Source: Rhodoferax sp. U2-2l
Lineage (GTDB): Bacteria > Pseudomonadota > Gammaproteobacteria > Burkholderiales > Burkholderiaceae_C
Reading direction: 5' to 3'
NCBI RefSeq assembly: GCF_020594515.1
Contig: NZ_JAJCTH010000011.1
Coordinates: 62,001 to 126,000, forward strand
DNA length: 64,000 nt
Part shown: positions 28,203-38,089 of the stretch, one piece after another
Layout: the number at the start of each line of letters is the position of its first letter
Position numbering within the stretch: the stretch's first letter is position 1
The notes under the pieces: generated by a model
Database searches by the model: none
The model's input: the letters and a program-made list of their open reading frames with translations, nothing else
Told to the model about the DNA's origin: nothing
Translations under genes and position numbers: made by a program

Positions 28203-29822
28203 TCAGGACAGCGGCTTCAAACCCAGCTCTGCCAAAAAACCGTTGTGCTTTTGTTTGGCCGCCGCAATGTCTTTTTCAATCTGGACCAAGTCGGCGTGTG
28301 TCGCGGCCAGGTCAATCTCCGCCTCACCTACCGCCGTGCTGATGTAGCGCGAGATGTTCAGGTTGAACTCGTTCTTCTCAATCTCGGCCATTCCCACCCT
28401 GCGTGAGTAACGTGCCTCTTCCTCGCGGAACTGGTACGTCTTGATGATTTTGGCGATGTTCTCACCTGTCAGCTGGTTCTGGCGCTTGCCTTTGACGAAG
28501 TGCTCTGCCGCATTGATGAACAACACGTCATCCGGCTTTTTGCACTTCTTCAACACCAGGATGCACACCGGAATACCTGTGGAATAAAACAGATTGGACG
28601 GCAGCCCAATCACTGTGTCGATGTGGCCGTCCTTCAGCAGCTTGGTGCGGATGCGTTCTTCCGCCCCGCCACGGAACAGCACACCATGCGGCAAGATGAT
28701 GGCCATCACGCCTTCGTCTTTCAAGAAGTGAAAGCCGTGCAGCAAAAATGCAAAGTCCGCGGCCGACTTGGGCGCCAGGCCATGGTTTTTGAAGCGCACG
28801 TCGTCCGCCAACGCGTCGGTCGGCTCCCAGCGGTAGCTGAACGGCGGATTGGCCACAATGGCATCAAACGCAGGCTTTTTGGCCGGGTTCAGCTCCCGCA
28901 AGATGTCCCAATCGTTGGTCAGCGTGTCACCGTGGAAGATATCAAACTCGGTGTCTTTCACCCCGTGCAACAGCATGTTCATACGCGCCAAGTTGTAGGT
29001 GGTGATGTTCTTCTCTTGGCCGTAAATCTTGCCAATGCCATGCGGCCCCATGCGCTTGCGCACGTTCAGCAACAGCGAGCCAGACCCGCAGGCAAAGTCC
29101 ATCACACTCTCCAGTCGCTGCTTGGGGCCGGTTTTGGGCTCCTGGCTGTCCAGCGTCACGATGGCTGAGAGGATGTCCGAGATTTGCTGTGGCGTGTAAA
29201 ACTCACCCGCCTTCTTGCCCGAGCCCGCAGCAAACTGACCAATCAGGTACTCATACGCATCACCCAGCGCGTCCATTTCTTTGGAGAACTCGGCCAGTCC
29301 ATCGGCAATCTTCTGGATGATGGTGCAGAGCTTGGTATTGCGATCGGTGTACGTCTTACCCAGCTTGGACGAACCCAGGTCAATTTCAGAAAACAAGCCT
29401 TGAAACGTGCTCTCAAAAGACTCGTTCTCAATGTATTTGAAGCCCGCCTGCAGCGTGTTGAGCAGCTCATCACTTTGGGTGCGCGCCATATTGGCAATGC
29501 TGCTCCACAAGTGCTGCGGCTGGACCACGTAGTGCACCTTGCGGCGCATTTGTTTTTCAAACGCCGTGATATCCGCCGGGTTGTTGGCGTACCACAACGC
29601 CAGCGGCACGGGGCGCGCACTGTTGTCGTCTTTCTGTTCCACCGTGGGGTAGTCACTGCCCAACTCCTTCTTGGCCGCCGCCTCGTAGTTGTCAGACAGG
29701 TAGCGCAGGAACAGGAAGGACAGCATGTAGTCGCGGAAGTCATCCGCATCCATCGCGCCGCGTAATTGGTCGGCAATCGCCCACAGGGTGTTGCCCAGTT
29801 GTTTTTGGTTGTGTTCGGTCAT
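28203..29822 (-). CDS. hsdM: Type I restriction-modification methylase subunit HsdM
   Basis: A 539-residue N6-adenine methyltransferase subunit, close in size to type IC HsdM. L-W-A-I-A-D-Q-L-R-G and F-R-D-Y-M-L form the N-terminal HsdM domain; G-E-F-Y-T-P is at 206-211; the SAM loop D-F-A-C-G-S-G-S is at 242-249; the catalytic N-P-P-F is at 325-328. With HsdS it methylates the host site and with HsdR it restricts foreign DNA. Its start overlaps the 66-residue gene by 4 bp, so its expression is tied to the zeta-like pair. It is the last gene of the operon. Confidence 0.96.
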   Translation of the reverse strand: MTEHNQKQLGNTLWAIADQLRGAMDADDFRDYMLSFLFLRYLSDNYEAAAKKELGSDYPTVEQKDDNSARPVPLALWYANNPADITAFEKQMRRKVHYVVQPQHLWSSIANMARTQSDELLNTLQAGFKYIENESFESTFQGLFSEIDLGSSKLGKTYTDRNTKLCTIIQKIADGLAEFSKEMDALGDAYEYLIGQFAAGSGKKAGEFYTPQQISDILSAIVTLDSQEPKTGPKQRLESVMDFACGSGSLLLNVRKRMGPHGIGKIYGQEKNITTYNLARMNMLLHGVKDTEFDIFHGDTLTNDWDILRELNPAKKPAFDAIVANPPFSYRWEPTDALADDVRFKNHGLAPKSAADFAFLLHGFHFLKDEGVMAIILPHGVLFRGGAEERIRTKLLKDGHIDTVIGLPSNLFYSTGIPVCILVLKKCKKPDDVLFINAAEHFVKGKRQNQLTGENIAKIIKTYQFREEEARYSRRVGMAEIEKNEFNLNISRYISTAVGEAEIDLAATHADLVQIEKDIAAAKQKHNGFLAELGLKPLS

Positions 29823-30019
29823 TTAGGTCTGCTTTTTGCGGCTTCTTGCAGCACGAGGTCTGAGGCGGAAATGCGTTGCAAGCGCCCATCTTTCATGATG
29901 ACCAGATGGGTATTGGTTTGCATCGCCGTCTTGCGGGCCGATTGGGCCGCACGGCGCAGCGCACCCAGGGCAGCGCGCACATCCGGGTCTTTGGCTTTGG
30001 CCAAGTCGTTGGCATTCAT
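29819..30019 (-). CDS. Small protein, candidate antitoxin of the zeta-like kinase
   Basis: A 66-residue protein, no family recognised with certainty. The first 35 residues are Ala/Arg/Lys-rich and helical (D-V-R-A-A-L-G-A-L-R-R-A-A). The second part looks like a short beta hairpin (H-L-V-I-M-K-D-G-R-L-Q-R-I-S). It overlaps the zeta-like gene and hsdM by 4 bp each. Pairing of a short basic protein with a P-loop kinase suggests a toxin-antitoxin pair, but this is inference; it could also be an HsdM accessory. Confidence 0.6.
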   Translation of the reverse strand: MNANDLAKAKDPDVRAALGALRRAAQSARKTAMQTNTHLVIMKDGRLQRISASDLVLQEAAKSRPK

Positions 30020-30534
30020 TGGTTTTCACCCCATTGCAAAAGTGCTGGCTCTTCGCCAACGTTGTCAAATTCCGCCCATGCATCCACTGCGGACTTGTAG
30101 GCATTTTCAAAGTTGTGCAGACCTGCAACAAAACGACGACGAATCACATCCTCCGGAATATGGTGTCCGCCTTGCTGCACGCGCTCTGCCACGCGCGCAA
30201 TAGCCGTCTGTGCATCGGGCAGGCGCAGAAAAAACAGGCTGACGTGGTAGCCAAGTGCCCGCCATTGCCCAATACGCCCCACGTAGGCCAGCCCTGCCAG
30301 CGTGGTTTCAAACGCAAAGCTCTCGCCCTTGCGCACACATTCATCCATTTCCAAGAGCATCAAACGCCCCGCCTTGATAGCCGCTTGCTCGGGCGCAAAA
30401 GGGGACAAACCTGCGGCAATCAGATCGGCGTTGATAAAGCGCTGGCACTGTGCTTCTTGTGGCAGGAACGACCGGGCAAACGTGGTTTTGCCTGCCCCAT
30501 TTGGCCCGGCGATGATGATGATTTTTTTCGTCAT
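30016..30534 (-). CDS. Zeta-toxin-like P-loop kinase
   Basis: A 172-residue protein with a Walker A loop G-P-N-G-A-G-K-T-T (10-18), I-N-A-D-L-I-A-A-G-L-S-P-F (34-46), and F-A-F-E-T-T-L-A-G, all typical of the short zeta-toxin/AAA_33 group. Zeta toxins phosphorylate UDP-N-acetylglucosamine and block wall synthesis, but short family members may have other substrates. It lacks an epsilon-type antitoxin; the overlapping 66-residue protein takes that position. It is preceded by a 139-bp spacer with an inverted repeat, the only real gap in the hsd operon. Confidence 0.8.
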   Translation of the reverse strand: MTKKIIIIAGPNGAGKTTFARSFLPQEAQCQRFINADLIAAGLSPFAPEQAAIKAGRLMLLEMDECVRKGESFAFETTLAGLAYVGRIGQWRALGYHVSLFFLRLPDAQTAIARVAERVQQGGHHIPEDVIRRRFVAGLHNFENAYKSAVDAWAEFDNVGEEPALLQWGENQ

Positions 30535-30610
30535 TTTGCAAGCTCGCCTTTTCCGCAGGTCTGAACTGTCAAGAATTCCTTGCCAGTTGCCCAGCTACCT
30601 GTCGTAACTT

Positions 30611-30637
30611 CAGTTGTCAACCAATGCTTGACAACTG
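30611..30637. repeat. Inverted repeat upstream of the zeta-like gene
   Basis: CAGTTGTCAA (30611-30620) and its exact complement TTGACAACTG (30628-30637), 7-nt spacer. Read on the minus strand the arm contains TTGACA, a perfect -35 hexamer, though the -10 region (TAGCTG) is poor. It may be an operator for an internal promoter driving the zeta-like gene, the 66-residue gene and hsdM, or a prrC 3' hairpin. The rest of the 30535-30673 spacer shows nothing else clear. Confidence 0.5.
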
Positions 30638-30673
30638 ATATGCCACATTTCCAGTCGTAGAGGAGTACGTCAA

Positions 30674-31864
30674 TCATGCAGCAGCCCCTTCAGCTTTCTT
30701 CTTGGTTGGGGATTCAAAGACGTCGGGTAGCACAAATTCATAGCGACCCAAAAACGCATCAAGAATCTGTCTGAATAATTTCTTGTTGTCATCCACCATC
30801 TCCAAGGGCTGGTAGATATCGTACTTGCCGTGGCTTAGCAGGTTGAGTGCGCGAGAAAAAAGGTCCGCATCATCCAGCCCATGAATGCAGGCAGAAAAAT
30901 CGTCGCGACCGAAAAAGGTAGCGGTCTTCTCCAAAATGCTACGCAGCATGTTGAAGTGGTAGGTGTAAAGCGTGCCGCCCTGAGATGCCTTTTGAAGCTC
31001 TGCCAACATCGAGACATGGTGAAAAAACGGCGTATCGTCCGTGGCGCGCAGCGTGTAGATGGTGCCGCGCTCAGGCCGTTGCAGCAAGTACTTCTTGTGC
31101 GCATCCTTCTTTACCTCATTGCACACCACATTGAAGAACAAGGCGTGGTGGGATGACACCACGGCCTTGATGGGCGCAGGCACCATGCGTGGTGGGTTAT
31201 CAGCCTGCCCAGGCCCGTCGGCTACCACGGCTTCAGGTCGGGTTCTGCTCTTGGCCTTGCGCAGCAGCTTGGCCAAATCGCTGGCCACAGCTATGGCGTT
31301 GTTGTCGTCCAGCGAGGTGATGGGGTCGTCAATGTAAAGGTATTTAACCCATGCATAGGTTTCCAGCCCGTCAATGACACGCTCACAAATCGCCATGAAC
31401 AGGCACCAGATGAAGATGTTCTCTTCACCACGCGACACCTTGATGTGGCGCTCCTCTTCACTTTTGCGAAAGCTGATGGTCCATTTGTCGTAATCAATGT
31501 CGAACAGAAAGTCTGCATACCGTCCCAGGTAGTGGCCAATGCGCTCATCCAGGGCCAAGTCCTTCACGCCCTTGAAAAACTTGGAATCTGCATTGATGTG
31601 CAGCCGCCGCTCTTTGTCTTGATCCAGGTCGTTGTCCCAGTAGAACAGGTCTTCGGTAAAGGCGTTGAAATACAACGTGTCGGGCTGGCCCTTATTTTTG
31701 CGCTTGCCTGCATCCTTGAACTCCATGGAGAGCCGGGTTTTGCCCGTGCCGTTGTAGGCATAGAGCAGCACAAAGTCCTGGCTGCCACCATTCAAGTCAT
31801 CGCGCAGCCGGGCAGCGAGCCTGCGCAAGCTGGTGAAGCGGTGAATCTTGATCTTCTCGCTCAT
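30674..31864 (-). CDS. prrC: PrrC-type anticodon nuclease
   Basis: A 396-residue protein, the size of E. coli PrrC. The N-terminal ABC-like ATPase has Walker A at 37-46 (Y-N-G-T-G-K-T-R-L-S), the PrrC block Y-F-N-A-F-T-E-D-L-F-Y-W-D-N-D-L (65-80), a signature-like S-R-G-E-E-N (144-149), Walker B Y-I-D-D-P-I-T-S-L-D-D, and the H-loop S-S-H-H. The C-terminal nuclease keeps Arg308-x3-Glu312 and His345, matching the PrrC triad Arg320, Glu324, His356. PrrC stays silent bound to a type IC R-M complex and cuts tRNA-Lys when a phage inhibitor disarms restriction. It overlaps hsdS by 4 bp, exactly the expected partner. Confidence 0.9.
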   Translation of the reverse strand: MSEKIKIHRFTSLRRLAARLRDDLNGGSQDFVLLYAYNGTGKTRLSMEFKDAGKRKNKGQPDTLYFNAFTEDLFYWDNDLDQDKERRLHINADSKFFKGVKDLALDERIGHYLGRYADFLFDIDYDKWTISFRKSEEERHIKVSRGEENIFIWCLFMAICERVIDGLETYAWVKYLYIDDPITSLDDNNAIAVASDLAKLLRKAKSRTRPEAVVADGPGQADNPPRMVPAPIKAVVSSHHALFFNVVCNEVKKDAHKKYLLQRPERGTIYTLRATDDTPFFHHVSMLAELQKASQGGTLYTYHFNMLRSILEKTATFFGRDDFSACIHGLDDADLFSRALNLLSHGKYDIYQPLEMVDDNKKLFRQILDAFLGRYEFVLPDVFESPTKKKAEGAAA

Positions 31865-33111
31865 CCCTCAACTGCCTCCACCGAGGGGAAGAGCTGCTGC
31901 ATCAGCCCTTTTTTGTGGGTCTTGAGGGTGTCGAGCTCTTGGTTGGTGGTGGTGAGGAGGGCGTCGAGGGAGATTAGGCAGTCGGCGATTCGCTGTTGCT
32001 CACGCAAGGGCGGCACTGATATGCACAACTCTTTGAAAAAGGGAAGGCCGATGGTCTTGATCGTGCTACCCGTGGCTATCCGTTCAAAAATAGGCTTCAT
32101 TAGCTGAAGCAAGTAATACAAAAACCAATTTACTAGTTTTTGATCATCACAAACCCAGACAATGAAATGCTGGCTAACCGCCATGGGCACAGCCATGACA
32201 GCACTTTTGCCAACACCCGCATCACGACTAATTAGCACCGTACCTGCGGGATGCAGTACCGCTGACGAGTTCTCAATACCTTGTTTGGAAATTTCTATCT
32301 TGGTAGTCGAAATCAATCCTGCATCCAAATGCTTCGAATCGGCAAGAGAAACCCATTTGATGCCTCCGTCGTAATACTCTGAACTGCTTTTGCTGGGTGT
32401 ATGGCCAGAGCCTCTTTTGGCCAAGTCTTCAAGCTTCCTAAGCTCCCACTCCCCCGCACCCCGAAAATCAGGAAACCGCAGGCGCGGTTGGGTTTCACCT
32501 TCGCGGGGGAAAAGCTGCTGCATCAGCCCTTTTTTATGGGTCTTGAGCGCGTCCACTTTGCGGGCCTGCGCGGCGATCAGTTCGTCCAAGGAACTCAGAC
32601 AGTCGGCGATTTTTTTCTGTTCTTCTGGTGATGGGACGGGAATTCGTAATTCTGAAAACTGCTTGTAGCTGATCATCTTCCCGTCGCGAAGACCTTCCAG
32701 ATTTTTTGTGAGGATTTGAATGAATCTGTCAGTCTTCAGGTAATGCCTGAAATATGCATCGTTTCCTTGACCGCGCCGCCGAAGGATGACGTAAGCCGGA
32801 CTGCATATTCCCTTGTATTGCGAGTACTCAATGCCGCCCTGAAACGACCTGAGGCTGATGATGAAATCACCTACCTGAACTACCTTGTAACTTTCGATGC
32901 TTTTTTCAGACACCGATACGTGATAGTCAATCATGTGTCTGGGGATCGCGCCATATTCTTGGGTAATCGCCAATACGGGAAGACCGGGCTCGGGGTTCTT
33001 ATCGCTTATCTGCTTGAACAGGTTATCGCCAAATTGTTCGCTCCACCCATCCGCATCCCGAAACGCCGGAAACCGCAGCTTCGGCACCAAGTTGGTTTTT
33101 TCTCGTTTCAT
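31861..33111 (-). CDS. hsdS: Type I R-M specificity subunit HsdS
   Basis: A 416-residue protein with two target-recognition domains (about residues 10-170 and 210-380), each followed by a coiled-coil spacer. Near-identical ends of the two halves read L-K-T-H-K-K-G-L-M-Q-Q-L-F-P, and E-E-Q-K-K-I-A-D-C-L-S-S-L-D mirrors R-E-Q-Q-R-I-A-D-C-L-I-S-L-D. Each domain should read one half of a bipartite site; the site itself cannot be deduced. At the DNA level a 42-bp repeat marks the two spacers. It sits between a KilA-N gene and prrC, with 4-bp overlaps on both sides. Confidence 0.95.
   Translation of the reverse strand: MKREKTNLVPKLRFPAFRDADGWSEQFGDNLFKQISDKNPEPGLPVLAITQEYGAIPRHMIDYHVSVSEKSIESYKVVQVGDFIISLRSFQGGIEYSQYKGICSPAYVILRRRGQGNDAYFRHYLKTDRFIQILTKNLEGLRDGKMISYKQFSELRIPVPSPEEQKKIADCLSSLDELIAAQARKVDALKTHKKGLMQQLFPREGETQPRLRFPDFRGAGEWELRKLEDLAKRGSGHTPSKSSSEYYDGGIKWVSLADSKHLDAGLISTTKIEISKQGIENSSAVLHPAGTVLISRDAGVGKSAVMAVPMAVSQHFIVWVCDDQKLVNWFLYYLLQLMKPIFERIATGSTIKTIGLPFFKELCISVPPLREQQRIADCLISLDALLTTTNQELDTLKTHKKGLMQQLFPSVEAVEG
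31885..31926. repeat. 42-bp direct repeat in hsdS, copy 1
   Basis: The stretch from GGGGAAGAGC to GGGTCTTGAG matches 32506-32547 with two mismatches. It encodes the spacer end K-T-H-K-K-G-L-M-Q-Q-L-F-P of the second half. Confidence 0.85.
32506..32547. repeat. 42-bp direct repeat in hsdS, copy 2
   Basis: The stretch from GGGGAAAAGC to GGGTCTTGAG, same orientation as 31885-31926. It encodes the spacer after the first target-recognition domain, separating the two by 621 bp. Confidence 0.85.
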
Positions 33112-33938
33112 GATGCCAGTCTCTTCATATGGTGGTCAGCCAACAAACTACGCATTTGCGTGATGGCAATGTCGTTAAGCTTGAGTAGGCGCTCTGGTGC
33201 GGGCAACCCTTGGCGGATGAAGACGGCGTTGAGGCTTTCCAGATTGGTGAGCACCACCAATTGCTCCAGCGTGGCGTTGTCGCGCTGGTTACCTTGGGCG
33301 TCGGGATGGCTGTCTTGCCACTGTTTGGCGGTTTGCCCAAAGAGGGCCACATTCAGCAAGTCGGCCTCGCTGGCGTAGACATGGCTGGCCTGGATTTTGG
33401 TGATGGTGGGTGGAACCAAGGTTTCTTTGATGGCATCGGTGTGGATGCGGTAATTGATTTTGGACAGGGTGCGCTGCAAGTTCCAGCCGAGTTGGAGGCG
33501 GCTGCTTTCTTCTTCTTTGAGACGGCGGAACTCTTTGACCAGGTAAATCTTGAACTCGGGGCTGATCCACATGCCGAATTCAAAGGCAATATCGGGGTGC
33601 GCGTACGTGCCGCCATAGCGCCCTGCAGTCGCTTTAAGTCCAACCGCTCCCGTCTTTTCAACCCATTCTTTGACGCTGATTTTGTAGCTGTTGAGGCCTG
33701 CCTGACTTTTAATTGTGGCGAATTCGCCGTAATTAAAAGCAGGGTTGTAGATGGACTCCCAAATGCCCAAGAACTCGACCGTATTGCGGTTGCGCAGCCA
33801 ATCTGAGATGAAAAAGTCACCGTCTTTCGCGCGCAGCATGTCGGTGAGCGAGATGTAGTCGCCTTGAGGCGACGTGACTACCGCTACGCTGGTGCCCTGG
33901 ATGTCCAGGGTGCTGGTCTTGGTTGTTCTGCGGTTCAT
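33108..33938 (-). CDS. KilA-N domain protein
   Basis: A 276-residue protein. The N-terminal 120 residues match the KilA-N DNA-binding fold of phage and poxvirus proteins: Y-I-S-L-T-D-M-L, I-S-D-W-L-R-N-R-N-T-V-E-F-L, W-V-E-K-T-G-A-V-G-L-K-A-T-A-G-R-Y-G-G-T-Y, and A-F-E-F-G-M-W-I-S-P-E-F-K. The C-terminal half is helical and unique (D-L-L-N-V-A-L-F-G-Q-T-A). Such proteins often travel with type I R-M loci; the role is unknown. Its start and stop overlap the neighbouring genes by 4 bp. Confidence 0.85.
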   Translation of the reverse strand: MNRRTTKTSTLDIQGTSVAVVTSPQGDYISLTDMLRAKDGDFFISDWLRNRNTVEFLGIWESIYNPAFNYGEFATIKSQAGLNSYKISVKEWVEKTGAVGLKATAGRYGGTYAHPDIAFEFGMWISPEFKIYLVKEFRRLKEEESSRLQLGWNLQRTLSKINYRIHTDAIKETLVPPTITKIQASHVYASEADLLNVALFGQTAKQWQDSHPDAQGNQRDNATLEQLVVLTNLESLNAVFIRQGLPAPERLLKLNDIAITQMRSLLADHHMKRLAS

Positions 33939-34291
33939 GGCTCCCCCTCTGCTGTGTCGTTCTTGTCCTCACCATCCCACATCTCACGGTAGGCATGGAT
34001 GTAGCTGGCGGTCGCTTGCGGGTCCAGTTGCCAGTAATGGCGGCACAGGGCTTTGAAGAGAGCAAGTCCTTTGGGTGTGCAAGCGTGATTCAGAAGTTGA
34101 TCCAGCGTGTGCTCGATCCAGAGGGCATCGGGGCTGTCGCTGCGCAGGATGGCCTGGACGGTGGGTGCCAGTGCCTCGACGGCCTGTTGGTGAAGTGCCT
34201 GCAGTGGGGCCATGGCCGCAGAGAGCGTATCCAGCAACTCCAGGTAAGGGTCAGCGTTCGGCGCGGTGGCGTGCGGTGGGGGCAAAATCAT
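33935..34291 (-). CDS. Hypothetical 118-residue protein in the hsd operon
   Basis: No family recognised. Pro-rich start, then mostly helical (L-E-L-L-D-T-L-S-A-A-M-A-P-L), a middle with D-A-L-W-I-E-H-T-L-D-Q-L-L-N-H-A-C, and an acidic tail (D-G-E-D-K-N-D-T-A-E-G-E-P). No signal or membrane segment. Its real status is supported by 4-bp ATGA-type overlaps with both neighbours. Confidence 0.65.
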   Translation of the reverse strand: MILPPPHATAPNADPYLELLDTLSAAMAPLQALHQQAVEALAPTVQAILRSDSPDALWIEHTLDQLLNHACTPKGLALFKALCRHYWQLDPQATASYIHAYREMWDGEDKNDTAEGEP

Positions 34292-35034
34292 TTCAGCACC
34301 CCCCTGCCTTGTTCGGTCAGGCGGTATTTCTGCAAACGGCTGTTAGGTTTGTCGGGGATGGTGCGTTCAACCAAGCCTGCCTCTAGCGCAGGTGCCAGAT
34401 ACAGTTTTTCAAAATTGTCTCTGCCTTTGAGATTTAGCTTTTCCATCAGCTCTTTGCGGCTCCACGAACCTTCACCGACGGCCATGAGAAGCGCTGTGAC
34501 TTGCCCTGTGACTTGTTCGCCAGCGGCTTCCCCTTGCCCTTGAGGCCGCCGCACCAGGGCGGTGAATTGGTTACCGCTGACCTCACTGATCAGCTCAATT
34601 TGCGGCCATTCGCCCAGCGCCCGGGAGATGCCGCTGCCCATGCCTCGGTAGGGCAGCAGTCGGAAGGCGTGCTCGCTCAGCGTGGGATTGCGGCGGTTGC
34701 TTTTGCCGTGGCGGATGTCGTCAATGCTCAGGCTGTCGGGCAAGGGGCCGGGGCTGATGATCTCGATGCGGTCGCGAAACACCAGAATGCGGATGGAGGC
34801 GCTGGTGAAGTAGTCGCGGTGGACGAGCGCATTGACCAGCAGTTCTTGCAGGGCGATTTCAGGCACTTCCAGGATACCCGGCGAGTTGAAGCCCTGGTCA
34901 CCCTGCACGCGGCGCAGGTTGCGTTTGATGAAGGCCAGCGCCTCGGTGTATTGAGCATGCAAGGTGCTGCTGACGTCTGGGCCCTGAGGGGACTCCAGCG
35001 TTAACACCTCTTCAAGTAGCGCTCTACTGCTCAT
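34288..35034 (-). CDS. HATPase_c_4 / winged-helix protein lacking the AlbA_2 domain
   Basis: A 248-residue protein. E-L-L-V-N-A-L-V-H-R-D-Y-F is the N-box of the HATPase_c_4 domain found in AlbA_2-type regulators, with I-I-S-P-G-P-L-P and R-G-M-G-S-G-I following. The C-terminal 80 residues look like a winged helix (V-T-G-Q-V-T-A-L-L...S-R-K-E-L-M-E-K-L). Usual members have about 400 or more residues with an N-terminal AlbA_2 domain, which is missing: the gene starts inside the end of hsdR (11-bp overlap, ATG at 35034). Either a trimmed form or a 5' deletion fused to hsdR. Confidence 0.75.
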   Translation of the reverse strand: MSSRALLEEVLTLESPQGPDVSSTLHAQYTEALAFIKRNLRRVQGDQGFNSPGILEVPEIALQELLVNALVHRDYFTSASIRILVFRDRIEIISPGPLPDSLSIDDIRHGKSNRRNPTLSEHAFRLLPYRGMGSGISRALGEWPQIELISEVSGNQFTALVRRPQGQGEAAGEQVTGQVTALLMAVGEGSWSRKELMEKLNLKGRDNFEKLYLAPALEAGLVERTIPDKPNSRLQKYRLTEQGRGVLK

Positions 35035-38000
35035 ACGCACTCAACCCCGAAATGTCACGCCCTTGCGCACGTTTTTGCAGCAACGGCACCAACTCTTTCA
35101 TCAGCACCGTTTCTGCCTGGGCGCGTGCCTTCCAGCCCAAGTCCAGCGGGGCCATCAGGTCACTGAGCGCTTCACCGTCAAAAATCATGCGCTGCAAGAT
35201 GCCATCGACAAAGGTTTGCAGGTCGGCAGGAGCCAGTTGATGCCGGGTGGCTATTGAACTCAGCTCGGTGCTGTCTTTTTCCTTTTTGAACCGGGTGTAG
35301 CCCTCACGGATGGCGGTCTCGCTCAGGCCCTCGCCCGCCTTCAGGGTGTTGATGTAGGCGGCAATGTCGTCGCGCTCGTTCATGAACTTGGCGTCGGCCA
35401 AGATCAGGCCAATCAGCTCGTCCTTGGTCATCTTCTGTTTGCCGGTGCCCTGCGAATACCGGGACATCAGGCCCATGATGTAGTCGTAGTCAATGACCGC
35501 GCTGGCAAACAGCACAAACTCAAAGTCGAGCTGGTCTACAGCGGCGGCGTCGCTGCCTGCCGCGCCACCATGGTCTTGCTTGGCCTGTTGGGCTTTCAGG
35601 CGCTGAGCGGTTTCAAGGTACGCACCGCGAAAGGCTTGCAGGTCCACTGCGGGCAAGATGTGTTCGATGGCTACGGTGTTGTCTTCGGTCAAGTCGGTGT
35701 ACTGATCGAGCTGGGTTTTGAGGCGCTGCACTTCTTTGAAATTTTTGATGAAGGCGGCGCGGGCGTCGTCGCCCTTGAGGCTGTGCACGGCTTCGGGCGT
35801 GCAAGCCAAGCCCTGGCTTTGCATGAAATCAGCCAGTTTGGTGACGGCGGCGTCCAGCTTCTGGATAACCACCGGGGCCTTGTCCACCAGCCAGATTTCA
35901 CGGGCCTGTTCAGCAGTCTTTTCACCGGAGAACATAGCGATAGCGGCATCCACTGCGTCTTTTTGATAGCGGAAGTCGAGGATGTTGCCGTAGGGCTTGG
36001 TGCCGTTGAGCACGCGGTTGGTGCGCGAAAACGCCTGTATCAGGCCATGGTGCTTGAGGTTTTTGTCCACATACAGCGTGTTGAGGTATTTGCTGTCAAA
36101 GCCGGTGAGCAGCATGTCGACCACTATTGTGATGTCGATTTTTTTGGCTGCCGGGTAGTCGGCATTGGGCCACTGCTGGTCTTTGATCCGCTTTTGCACG
36201 TCCTGGTAATACAAGTCGAATTCGCTCAGCTGATGGTTGGTGCCGTAGCGGGTGTTGTATTGGCCCAAGATGGCTTTGAGGGCGGTCTTTTTGCCATCGG
36301 GGTCGACCTGGTTGTCTTGCTTTTCTTGCGGCAGGTCTTGCTGCAGTTGCTTCACATCGGCATTGCCCTCCGCCGGGGGCGAAAACACGCAGGCGATGTT
36401 CAGGGGCACAAAAGCGGGGTCTGCCGCTTGCTTGGCCTTTTGCAGGTCGGCAAACAGGCTGTGGTATTCGATGGCGTCATTGATGCTGGCGGTGGCCAGG
36501 ATGGCGTTGAAGCGGCGGCCTGCAGTGGCCGTGTCGTGTTTGGCCAGGATGGCTTCAATGACGGCCCTTTTGGCCAGGGCCTCACCGGCCTTGGGTGGGT
36601 TTTTCCCCTCTGGCTTGAAGTAGTCCACATGGAAACGCAGCACGTTGGCGTCTTCAATGGCGTGGGTGATGGTGTAGGCGTGTAGCTGCTTTTGGAAGAT
36701 GTCTTCGGTGGTGCGGTACTGGCCTTCCTCACCCTCGAACTGCTTGACCGTGGCGTTCTTTTCAAAGATGGGCGTGCCGGTAAAGCCAAAGAGCTGGGCT
36801 TTCGGGAAAAAGGTCTTGATGGCGTCATGGTTGTCGCCAAACTGCGAGCGGTGGCATTCGTCAAAGATGAAGACGATGCGTTTGTCGGCGAGCGGTGCCA
36901 GCTGCTCTTTGAAGGTGGCCTTGCCGTCTTTCTTTTGTTGTTTGTTGCGTTTGCTGTTTTCATCCAACGCCAAACCCAGCTTCTGGATGGTGGTGACGAT
37001 GACCTTGTCGGCATAGTCGTCAGACAGCAGGCGGCGCACCAGCGTGGCGGTGTTGGTGTTTTCCTCTACGCAGCCTTCTTGGAAGCGGTTGAATTCTTCG
37101 CGGGTTTGGCGGTCCAGGTCTTTGCGGTCCACCACAAAGAGGCATTTCTCGATGTCGGGGTTGTCCTTGAGCAGGGTGGAGGCTTTGAAGGAGGTGAGTG
37201 TTTTGCCGCTGCCGGTGGTGTGCCAGATGTAGCCGTTGCCGCAGTTCTGGTGGATGCAGTCCACGATTTGTTTGACCGCGTACACCTGGTATGGGCGCAT
37301 CATCAGCAGCTTTTGTTCACTGGCCACCAGCACCATGTAGCGGCTGATGGTCTGGCCCAGGGTGCACTTCACCAAAAACTTGTCGGCAAACTCGTCGAGC
37401 TGGGTGATCTTGTTGTTGGCTTCGTCCGCAAACTGGTAAATGGGCAAAAAGCGCTCGTCCGCATTAAACGCAAAGTGACGCGTGTTGTTGTTGGCGAAGT
37501 AATAGGTGTTGGTGCGGTTGCTGACGATGAAAAGCTGCAAAAAGCACAGCAGCGTCTTGGTGTAGCCGTTGCCGGGGTCGTTTTTGTAGTCAACGATCTG
37601 CTCCATGGCGCGGCGCGGGTTGATACCCAGCGTTTTGAGCTCAATCTGCACACAGGGCACGCCGTTGATCAGGATAAGCACGTCATACCGGTGGTGGCTG
37701 TAGTCGGTGTTGATGCGCAGCTGGTTGACCACCTCGAAGGTGTTTTTGCACCAGTCTTTGATGTTGACCAGGGTGTAGTTCAGCGGTGTGCCGTCTTCAC
37801 GCGTGAACGCGTTGATGCTGCGCAGGGTCTTGCCCGCCGTGAACACGTCGGGGGTGACGATGTCGTCGAGCAGACGGGCGAACTCGCCGTCTGAGAGCTT
37901 GACGCGGTTGAGCGCTTCAAACTTCTCGCGGAAGTTGCGCTCAAGCGCGGCACGGTCGCGAATGTCTTGGCGGTACTCGTACTTCAGCCCCTGCAGCTTG

Positions 38001-38089
38001 CCGATAAAGCCGTATTCGATCTGATCTTCTTTGACAACGTGACTCGGCTTGCTGGCAGGCTGGTCGTAGGTGAAGTGGGACGGGGGCAT
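35024..38089 (-). CDS. hsdR: Type I restriction endonuclease subunit HsdR
   Basis: A 1021-residue motor and nuclease subunit, close to EcoR124I HsdR (type IC). The nuclease motif is Asp136, Glu150 and Lys152, with the same spacing as EcoR124I (151, 165, 167). Helicase motifs are Walker A H-T-T-G-S-G-K-T (290-297), D-E-C-H (410-413), F-G-F-T-G-T-P, and Q-A-F-S-R-T-N-R. It translocates and cuts unmethylated DNA with HsdS and HsdM. It is the first gene of the operon. The ATG at 38089 starts the homology; 15 upstream codons are open. Confidence 0.96.
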   Translation of the reverse strand: MPPSHFTYDQPASKPSHVVKEDQIEYGFIGKLQGLKYEYRQDIRDRAALERNFREKFEALNRVKLSDGEFARLLDDIVTPDVFTAGKTLRSINAFTREDGTPLNYTLVNIKDWCKNTFEVVNQLRINTDYSHHRYDVLILINGVPCVQIELKTLGINPRRAMEQIVDYKNDPGNGYTKTLLCFLQLFIVSNRTNTYYFANNNTRHFAFNADERFLPIYQFADEANNKITQLDEFADKFLVKCTLGQTISRYMVLVASEQKLLMMRPYQVYAVKQIVDCIHQNCGNGYIWHTTGSGKTLTSFKASTLLKDNPDIEKCLFVVDRKDLDRQTREEFNRFQEGCVEENTNTATLVRRLLSDDYADKVIVTTIQKLGLALDENSKRNKQQKKDGKATFKEQLAPLADKRIVFIFDECHRSQFGDNHDAIKTFFPKAQLFGFTGTPIFEKNATVKQFEGEEGQYRTTEDIFQKQLHAYTITHAIEDANVLRFHVDYFKPEGKNPPKAGEALAKRAVIEAILAKHDTATAGRRFNAILATASINDAIEYHSLFADLQKAKQAADPAFVPLNIACVFSPPAEGNADVKQLQQDLPQEKQDNQVDPDGKKTALKAILGQYNTRYGTNHQLSEFDLYYQDVQKRIKDQQWPNADYPAAKKIDITIVVDMLLTGFDSKYLNTLYVDKNLKHHGLIQAFSRTNRVLNGTKPYGNILDFRYQKDAVDAAIAMFSGEKTAEQAREIWLVDKAPVVIQKLDAAVTKLADFMQSQGLACTPEAVHSLKGDDARAAFIKNFKEVQRLKTQLDQYTDLTEDNTVAIEHILPAVDLQAFRGAYLETAQRLKAQQAKQDHGGAAGSDAAAVDQLDFEFVLFASAVIDYDYIMGLMSRYSQGTGKQKMTKDELIGLILADAKFMNERDDIAAYINTLKAGEGLSETAIREGYTRFKKEKDSTELSSIATRHQLAPADLQTFVDGILQRMIFDGEALSDLMAPLDLGWKARAQAETVLMKELVPLLQKRAQGRDISGLSAYEQ

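Follow-up and report, generated by a model that had tools for sequence, protein, structure and literature searches.

A 64,000-nucleotide stretch of the Rhodoferax sp. U2-2l genome (contig NZ_JAJCTH010000011.1, positions 62,001 to 126,000 of the forward strand), called the window below, carries at its positions 28203–38089 a restriction-modification (R-M) operon that also encodes the anticodon nuclease PrrC and five further genes. Profile and structure-database matches show that hsdR, hsdS, prrC and hsdM, the core of this locus, form a type IC R-M system with PrrC that resembles EcoprrI, and the operon as such is nothing out of the ordinary among known systems of its kind. Its five extra genes are exchangeable cargo that occupies two slots. 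One of them, encoding a KilA-N protein, holds a palindrome in its coding sequence (CDS); across relatives the two arms of this palindrome co-vary, and its sequence follows the putative recognition residues of the encoded protein. RhuM and DinD genes, which are cargo of the same slots, show the same behaviour (DinD in part), and DUF1016 genes have a palindrome too. These comparisons suggest that these cargo proteins bind their own genes, where they may act as roadblocks to transcription. A type IC and PrrC core with swappable, self-binding cargo of this sort is, taken as a whole, the best explanation that we can offer and a reasonably probable one.

The palindrome of the KilA-N genes is loop-less and lies at a fixed place of the CDS, where 66 of 68 relatives form 9–12 of 12 pairs. 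Its typical form is TTTTAA-N6-CGAATTCG-N6-TTAAAA and its sequence is hypervariable between relatives. In a scan of the operon block it ties with three other places and it stands out only against relatives. In RhuM genes, a palindrome was found at codons 61–68 in all of the first 49 examined (8–11 of 11 pairs, with quite different sequences). A larger set of 127 non-redundant genes from genomes and viral contigs was then reduced to 122 by dropping five gapped rows, and these had a mean of 9.75 of 11 pairs. Pairs 1, 2 and 5–9 are Watson-Crick in 117–121 of the 122 genes, pair 7 takes all four types (46, 27, 31 and 15), and at least six palindrome classes can be distinguished. Each family's site was first spotted by eye or picked as the commonest, and a comparison through one pipeline served as baseline: a common site was counted in 57 of 70 KilA-N and 64 of 70 RhuM genes, versus 10 of 70 for prrC, 18 of 70 for hsdM, 5 of 63 for hsdR, 4 of 70 for hsdS, 2 of 29 for zeta and 2 of 8 for the HATPase gene. 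Within three mismatches the KilA-N site occurs a single time in its own genome, inside its own gene; the one RhuM site tested also has a single occurrence in its genome.

Pairing exceeds what the encoded amino acids account for. Against a codon null, KilA-N genes have 10.91 pairs versus 7.11 (p<0.05 in 66 of 68 genes) and RhuM genes 9.75 versus 7.31 (p<0.05 in 91 of 122). Covariation was assessed by five measures, with shuffles that ignore relatedness. In 57 KilA-N sequences, 153 cells were changed on both sides versus 43 after shuffling, and in RhuM (60 of 108 distinct sites) 212 double changes were counted versus 62; in neither family did any of 500 shuffles reach the observed value. Structures slid along the alignment gave far lower counts, 23–53 for KilA-N and 18–41 for RhuM.

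The sequence of the palindrome is also linked to particular residues of the protein. The RhuM columns that best predict the palindrome bases are 45, 41, 42, 39, 38, 44 and 40, the top seven of 277, and they lie outside the palindrome. In the predicted fold (mean predicted local distance difference test score, pLDDT, 75.9) they are placed at the start of helix 40–52 of a helix-turn-helix, and the palindrome itself encodes the next strand, 62–68, of a predicted winged helix. The top columns are 42, 45, 41 and 46, then 86 and 43, of 195 for KilA-N (mean pLDDT of the predicted fold 88.8), and 40, 42 and 43 of 217 for DinD. As a control for relatedness, gene pairs of 50–85% identity were grouped according to whether their palindromes belong to the same class. 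Different-class pairs of RhuM disagree at columns 45, 42 and 41 in 0.89, 0.74 and 0.86 of cases, versus 0.25, 0.15 and 0.38 for same-class pairs (z = 7.3, 6.8 and 5.5), and in the same identity-matched contrast columns 40, 45 and 41 lead for KilA-N (z = 4.3, 3.7 and 3.2). Two KilA-N genes that have no palindrome were left out of these residue tests and kept in the pair-count, codon-null and covariation tests. A partial code can be read for RhuM: residues QN-SL go with AAGGA in 13 of 16 genes, RT-SE with CGGAA in 6 of 6 and PA-SK with TCCA in 8 of 8. In Foldseek searches DdrC, a DNA-binding dimer of Deinococcus, came first for both the RhuM and the KilA-N models (expectation value, E, 6.7e-4 and 2.0e-4, with low template modelling scores), and this common match of two predicted folds hints at a common origin of the families.

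From the covariation it is likely that each of these proteins, as a dimer, binds the palindrome within its own gene. Whether the bound protein would then act as a promoter-independent roadblock, limiting transcription of its own gene and of those behind it (in the window, hsdS, prrC, zeta, the 66-amino-acid gene and hsdM), is about evenly balanced. Cargo without a promoter of its own could in that case sit in any operon without being over-expressed. Of 15 listed RhuM slot genes, a set without the two that lie on the opposite strand of their loci, nine share 4 bp with the core gene upstream, and these overlaps, together with that of the KilA-N gene of the window, leave little room for a promoter directly upstream. 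More broadly, we lean slightly towards the view that KilA-N (PDC-S22), RhuM, DinD and perhaps YhcG/DUF1016 form one mobile class, in which a putative DNA-binding protein has a hypervariable target in its own CDS and gene, target and specificity evolve together. R-M operons would be landing slots for this class, and the control exerted on the gene itself, and possibly on downstream R-M genes, would be promoter-free. Four defence-associated families have an in-gene palindrome, with co-variation with candidate recognition residues in three. If the proposal is true, it supplies a concrete molecular target and a partial recognition code for poorly understood defence-associated families, it explains how promoterless cargo can live inside other operons, and it makes testable the role of several unexplained defence-linked genes, including E. 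coli K-12 dinD and yhcG.

Several observations weigh against this proposal. The KilA-N palindrome of the window itself has 10 of 12 pairs and thus two mismatches, the KilA-N genes of L192 (6004–6855) and L269 are the two without a palindrome (3 of 12 pairs; L numbers are our handles for loci), and four of the 122 RhuM genes have only 6–7 of 11 pairs. The palindrome is less complete in the other two families, where 40 of 55 DinD genes and 23 of 33 DUF1016/YhcG genes reach 9 or more of 10 pairs at a site shared within the family, and among the baseline genes hsdM does share one site in 18 of 70. Two of the covariation measures are less favourable: further pair types were not above shuffles in either KilA-N or RhuM, and the number of pairs with any double change was only slightly above them (9 of 500 shuffles as high for KilA-N, 73 of 500 for RhuM). 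KilA-N column 103, outside the putative recognition segment, is level with the third of the leading columns in the identity-matched contrast. The covariation shows a link between protein and palindrome and not a function. If KilA-N did block transcription in the window, hsdM would be lowered relative to hsdR, which is not obviously useful. Insulation between RhuM copies of one genome was considered as a function and is not supported: the classes differ in 7 of 9 cases, compared with 83% expected.

In E. coli K-12, dinD (L549, 5761–6585) forms 9 of 10 pairs in a palindrome at codon 63, the usual DinD place, and yhcG (L550, 5828–6955) has three palindromes 39 bp apart, at codons 105, 118 and 131 (9, 9 and 10 of 10 pairs). 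The best value in 18 neighbouring K-12 CDSs is 9, reached by three of them, so dinD is distinct by place only.

The features of the operon are given below, with E-values where a profile or PDB match is cited; protein families were assigned by Pfam, NCBIfam and PADLOC profile searches.

35024..38089, minus strand: hsdR, type IC-like restriction subunit (Pfam EcoR124_C, T1R_D3-like and HSDR_N; PDB EcoR124 HsdR, 1.3e-106)
34288..35040, minus strand: HATPase_c_4 and Fic-like_C protein of 250 amino acids, shortened, without AlbA_2 (Pfam; alignment to relatives)
33935..34291, minus strand: 118-amino-acid protein of no known family (profile searches gave only a sub-threshold BROMI match)
33108..33938, minus strand: KilA-N protein, PADLOC PDC-S22 (Pfam; PADLOC, 1.8e-127)
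33707..33738, minus strand: 32-bp imperfect palindrome inside the KilA-N CDS, candidate self-site (24-bp core 33711–33734, 10 of 12 pairs)
31861..33111, minus strand: hsdS, specificity subunit (Pfam, two Methylase_S stretches)
30674..31864, minus strand: prrC, anticodon nuclease relative with R308-E312-H345 (PADLOC PrrC, 1.2e-133; alignment)
30531..30677, minus strand: 48-codon open reading frame (ORF) in the 'spacer', probable RhuM remnant (weak similarity to RhuM)
30613..30635, minus strand: 23-bp RhuM-type palindrome GTTGTCAAGCATTGGTTGACAAC (comparison with other prrC loci)
30016..30534, minus strand: zeta-like kinase, candidate toxin (Pfam Zeta_toxin and AAA_33)
29819..30019, minus strand: 66-amino-acid protein, candidate antitoxin, no profile match (neighbour of zeta in 7 of 15 fetched zeta regions)
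28203..29822, minus strand: hsdM, type IC-like methylase subunit (TIGR00497, 4.2e-117; PDB EcoR124 M, 3.6e-88)

The nine ORFs of the original prediction were recovered from the ORF coordinates on the same (minus) strand, in the same order and at the same positions. Its 4-bp junctions also stand, and its 11-bp overlap between hsdR and the HATPase gene holds when the latter starts at ATG 35034 but becomes 17 bp from GTG 35040. The single spacer, between prrC and zeta, does measure 139 bp as described but is not empty: the 48-codon ORF (30677–30531) occupies it and overlaps prrC and zeta by 4 bp each. Because this ORF bridges the spacer, all cistrons from the HATPase gene to hsdM abut via 4-bp overlaps. 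Predicted sigma-70 promoters in the block (2 versus 3.5 expected) are uninformative.

The spacer ORF holds the strongest palindrome of the block scan (11 of 12 pairs), and GTTGTCAAGCATTGGTTGACAAC is one base off the palindrome of L010; perfect palindromes akin to it follow prrC in L002, L008, L010 and L086. In the window, L010 and L038 a short ORF behind prrC has a RhuM-type palindrome, as has one behind hsdS in L085. In BLAST searches the 48-codon ORF resembles RhuM only weakly (an 11-residue match to the RhuM of L086 has E = 0.16, and a match to a short ORF of L085 has E = 0.13), and together these features suggest that the ORF is a probable RhuM remnant. A conserved operator in the prrC–zeta spacer was considered and dropped, since the palindrome is of the kind found inside RhuM coding sequences generally. 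In the window, L006, L007 and L010, but not in L038, L009 or L055, both neighbours are bridged by small ORFs; these few cases are no more than suggestive of in-frame deletions that selection maintained for coupling to hsdM.

In order to place the operon among its relatives, 265 prrC relatives were returned by a scan of species genomes and the best 80 were kept, several of their loci being cut by contig ends. Among these 80, prrC has hsdM downstream in 76; upstream of it come hsdS in 73 loci (at a distance of 50 bp or less in 69) and hsdR in 70. The gene order had been thought unusual, which it is not in this near sample: hsdR and hsdS before prrC with hsdM after it is the commonest order (62 of 80). 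The PrrC profile had matches, many of them weak, in 28 of 274 genomes of a class-wide sample; nine strong loci were read (L082–L089 and L091, the window's own locus left out), and four of them have the classic hsdM-hsdS-prrC-hsdR order.

Extra genes were counted in the 62 loci with hsdR and hsdS upstream and hsdM downstream, a slot being called filled when at least 250 bp lay at the junction. Two main slots emerged, between hsdR and hsdS (filled in 12 of 62) and between prrC and hsdM (13 of 62), while the hsdS–prrC junction was filled in 3 of 62. Any insert was present in 22 of the 62 loci and both main slots were filled in four (L002, L016, L020 and L055). The cargo of the window is large by this standard: three genes occupy one slot, and the other holds two and a small ORF. 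Clustering of the slot ORFs from L002 to L091 gave 17 RhuM, 9 DUF1016 (two of them fragments), 4 HATPase (in three loci) and 4 DinD genes, the four names being verified by Pfam on representatives; PIN-type and Fic-like slot genes were also seen by eye.

The KilA-N and zeta cargo is not confined to hsd operons. PDC-S22 is present in 12 of 185 genomes (own genome counted), and KilA-N is near hsdS in 2 of the 12 genome places, as judged from wider flanks, some of them short or cut by contig ends. In L164 KilA-N, split over two frames, lies between an N6_N4_Mtase gene and a ResIII gene, and it adjoins type III-like genes also in L162 (methylase) and L166 (ResIII). In 11 plasmid places, from 26 matching records, no annotated hsd gene was found near KilA-N, in gene tables that are incomplete; in one of these places a DNA cytosine methyltransferase lies 6 kb away. 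Relatives of the zeta gene (Pfam Zeta_toxin, 3.6e-8, 33.5 bits with a cut-off of 22.3) occur in 34 of 150 genomes of the order, own genome counted. Among the 15 fetched zeta regions the 66-amino-acid gene stands beside zeta in 7, hsdS is near in 1, and several contain the pair without hsd genes. In L175 (1–4516) the pair lies between a ResIII gene and an N6_N4_Mtase gene, i.e. inside a type III-like R-M operon. Zeta and the 66-amino-acid gene are thus a portable pair, probably a toxin with its antitoxin. In L016 (10965–11564) zeta is broken and the adjoining 66-amino-acid gene is intact, a pattern common in toxin-antitoxin decay.

Among the extra genes only the 118-amino-acid gene looks hsd-bound. 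Few genomes have it (3 of 300 in the order and 1 of 398 in the phylum, own genome counted in both) and none was found on plasmids. In three of four further copies (L006, L038 and L202) it directly precedes hsdS and overlaps it; the fourth, in L203, is a weak match not near hsd genes. L202 is a type I locus without prrC, with the order hsdM, DUF1016, 118-amino-acid gene, hsdS, HATPase and hsdR. The HATPase protein of the window lacks about 240 residues, including the N-terminal AlbA_2, when aligned with its relatives of 488–495 amino acids in L002, L005 and L038, and AlbA_2 was detected by Pfam in the relative of L038. The start and end of the window gene are retained, as if by an internal in-frame deletion. 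Decay was also seen in KilA-N, which is a 74-amino-acid remnant in L005.

The main rival to self-binding roadblocks is exclusion of incoming copies: the protein would bind the palindrome in its own gene to silence such copies (superinfection or plasmid exclusion), and hypervariability would reflect immunity groups. We regard this as possible but doubtful. It is consistent with the KilA-N and RhuM relatives confirmed on viral contigs (130 and 124, of which 80 were kept each), with the 26 plasmid records of KilA-N, with hypervariable palindromes falling into at least six RhuM classes, and with a site found once in each of the two genomes tested. The KilA-N protein, however, has no known effector, and RhuM classes in multi-copy genomes are no more diverse than chance.

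The palindrome could alternatively be a mobility site at which cargo or its neighbours recombine or are cut, giving slot turnover and RhuM scars that keep the palindrome. The palindrome-bearing short ORFs after prrC and hsdS described above are what such a process might leave, a recombinase gene lies close to KilA-N in L194, L197 and L201, and DUF1016 has a PDDEXK nuclease domain. We nevertheless hold this to be unlikely: the scars were recognised via the motif itself and are a biased set, the site lies within the gene and not at gene ends, and Pfam found no nuclease or recombinase domain in KilA-N or RhuM.

The reading of the original prediction, in which every extra gene is a permanent component of a single multi-layer defence unit, could appeal to the single strand and overlapping cistrons throughout, and to PADLOC, which lists KilA-N, RhuM, DUF1016 and DinD as phage-defence candidates. 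A search for the whole gene order found the window's set in none of the 80 prrC loci (some cut by contig ends). KilA-N and the zeta pair also occur away from hsd genes, and next to type III R-M genes, the kind of independence from hsd that had been named as evidence against one unit, and the shortened HATPase, the KilA-N remnant in L005 and the broken zeta in L016 argue against fixed parts. This reading is accordingly highly improbable.

Least probable of all, and disfavoured, are palindromes that are RNA hairpins or coding coincidences and not DNA sites: the amino acids alone do account for 7.1–7.3 pairs, conservation is lowest at the two central pairs of the RhuM palindrome (83 and 81 of 122), which would suit a hairpin loop, and among mismatches G-T accounts for 38 of 153 in RhuM and 15 of 74 in the KilA-N core, a little above the 17% that equal chances would give, but symmetry is above the codon null, double changes alter amino acids, G-T fills only 4 of 610 cells of the best-kept RhuM pairs 5–9, below expectation for a selected RNA stem, and the palindrome sequence tracks residues of a helix-turn-helix, a DNA-binding fold.

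The assignment of the core as type IC-like with PrrC, already made in the original prediction, is borne out. HsdR has five PDB matches, all to 1038-residue HsdR chains (EcoR124 where named), and matches Pfam EcoR124_C at 4e-64. HsdM matches EcoR124 at 3.6e-88 and EcoKI at 1.3e-11, its best match being 3lkd (7.7e-107). Since HsdM is far closer to EcoR124 than to EcoKI and HsdR matches the EcoR124 type, the system is type IC-like. PrrC, with 396 amino acids, has the conserved NGTGKTR and DDP.(T/S)SLD motifs of an ABC-type ATPase, and the Arg-Glu-His triad is likewise kept as claimed (in an alignment of 91 sequences, R308 in 91, E312 in 91 and H345 in 90). By sequence, PrrC, KilA-N and RhuM had no PDB match below E = 0.4. 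In E. coli, PrrC cuts tRNA-Lys when a phage disables the R-M complex; by analogy the PrrC of the window would be expected to do so. Its length is inside the range of the short PrrC form, described as 341–416 amino acids (PMC2610378).

As to the insertion site, 15 argG regions were fetched, 13 from the same genus and 2 from the order, and tblastn found no hsd genes in them. The distance between argG and the epimerase gene is at most 0.8 kb in 7 of the 15, another large ORF lies between them in 2, and the epimerase gene is off the fetched stretch in 6 (contig end or other neighbours). L214 and L218, from the same genus, have other large ORFs, of 792 and 921 amino acids, in this interval. The block is most simply a local gain within this lineage.

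PrrC inside type IC operons is established (PMC3874165, PMC2610378, PMC12707154), and unrelated genes inserted in type I hsd operons are mentioned as restriction-linked ORFs (rlo genes) in Campylobacter (PMC2610378); these belong to other families than the cargo of the window. Like E. coli EcoprrI/PrrC, the window has type IC-like hsd genes with PrrC linked to them inside the operon, next to hsdS and with its triad; unlike EcoprrI, it has hsdR first and hsdM last, as in most near-sample loci, and cargo in two slots. The E. coli IncC plasmid LC744502, whose anticodon nuclease is 55% identical to the PrrC of the window (198 of 360 residues), has the same core order and also carries cargo between hsdR and hsdS, where a 'transcriptional regulator' matches the HATPase profile built here; its second cargo is an 879-amino-acid hypothetical protein and nothing lies between its prrC and hsdM. 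The type I island of Synechocystis plasmid pSYSG (L190), called a defence island (PMC4963859), shares with the window toxin-antitoxin-like genes between hsd genes, including zeta with a 66-amino-acid-like gene beside it. It differs in its hsdM-hsdS-hsdR order and its other toxin pairs, and no prrC was found in the stretch examined; its full order is hsdM, DUF433/PIN, hsdS, nucleotidyltransferase, zeta, 66-amino-acid-like gene, DUF4433, macro domain and hsdR. A review of toxin-like genes in R-M loci (PMC3506569) also states that typical antitoxins do not seem to be encoded by immunity loci; the zeta pairs of the window and of pSYSG may be exceptions.

In PADLOC the window's KilA-N is the candidate PDC-S22, and the RhuM, DUF1016 and DinD representatives are PDC-S05, PDC-S02 and PDC-S13; the profile tables for these four make no mention of an in-gene palindrome, and no description of hypervariable in-gene palindromes in these families was found in searches of the open-access PMC literature. 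ParB has a parS site inside its own gene, spo0J, and is like the proposed class in that a binding site lies in the gene of its own binder. The parS site is conserved and occurs at several places, unlike the palindromes described here, which are hypervariable and single in the two genomes tested.

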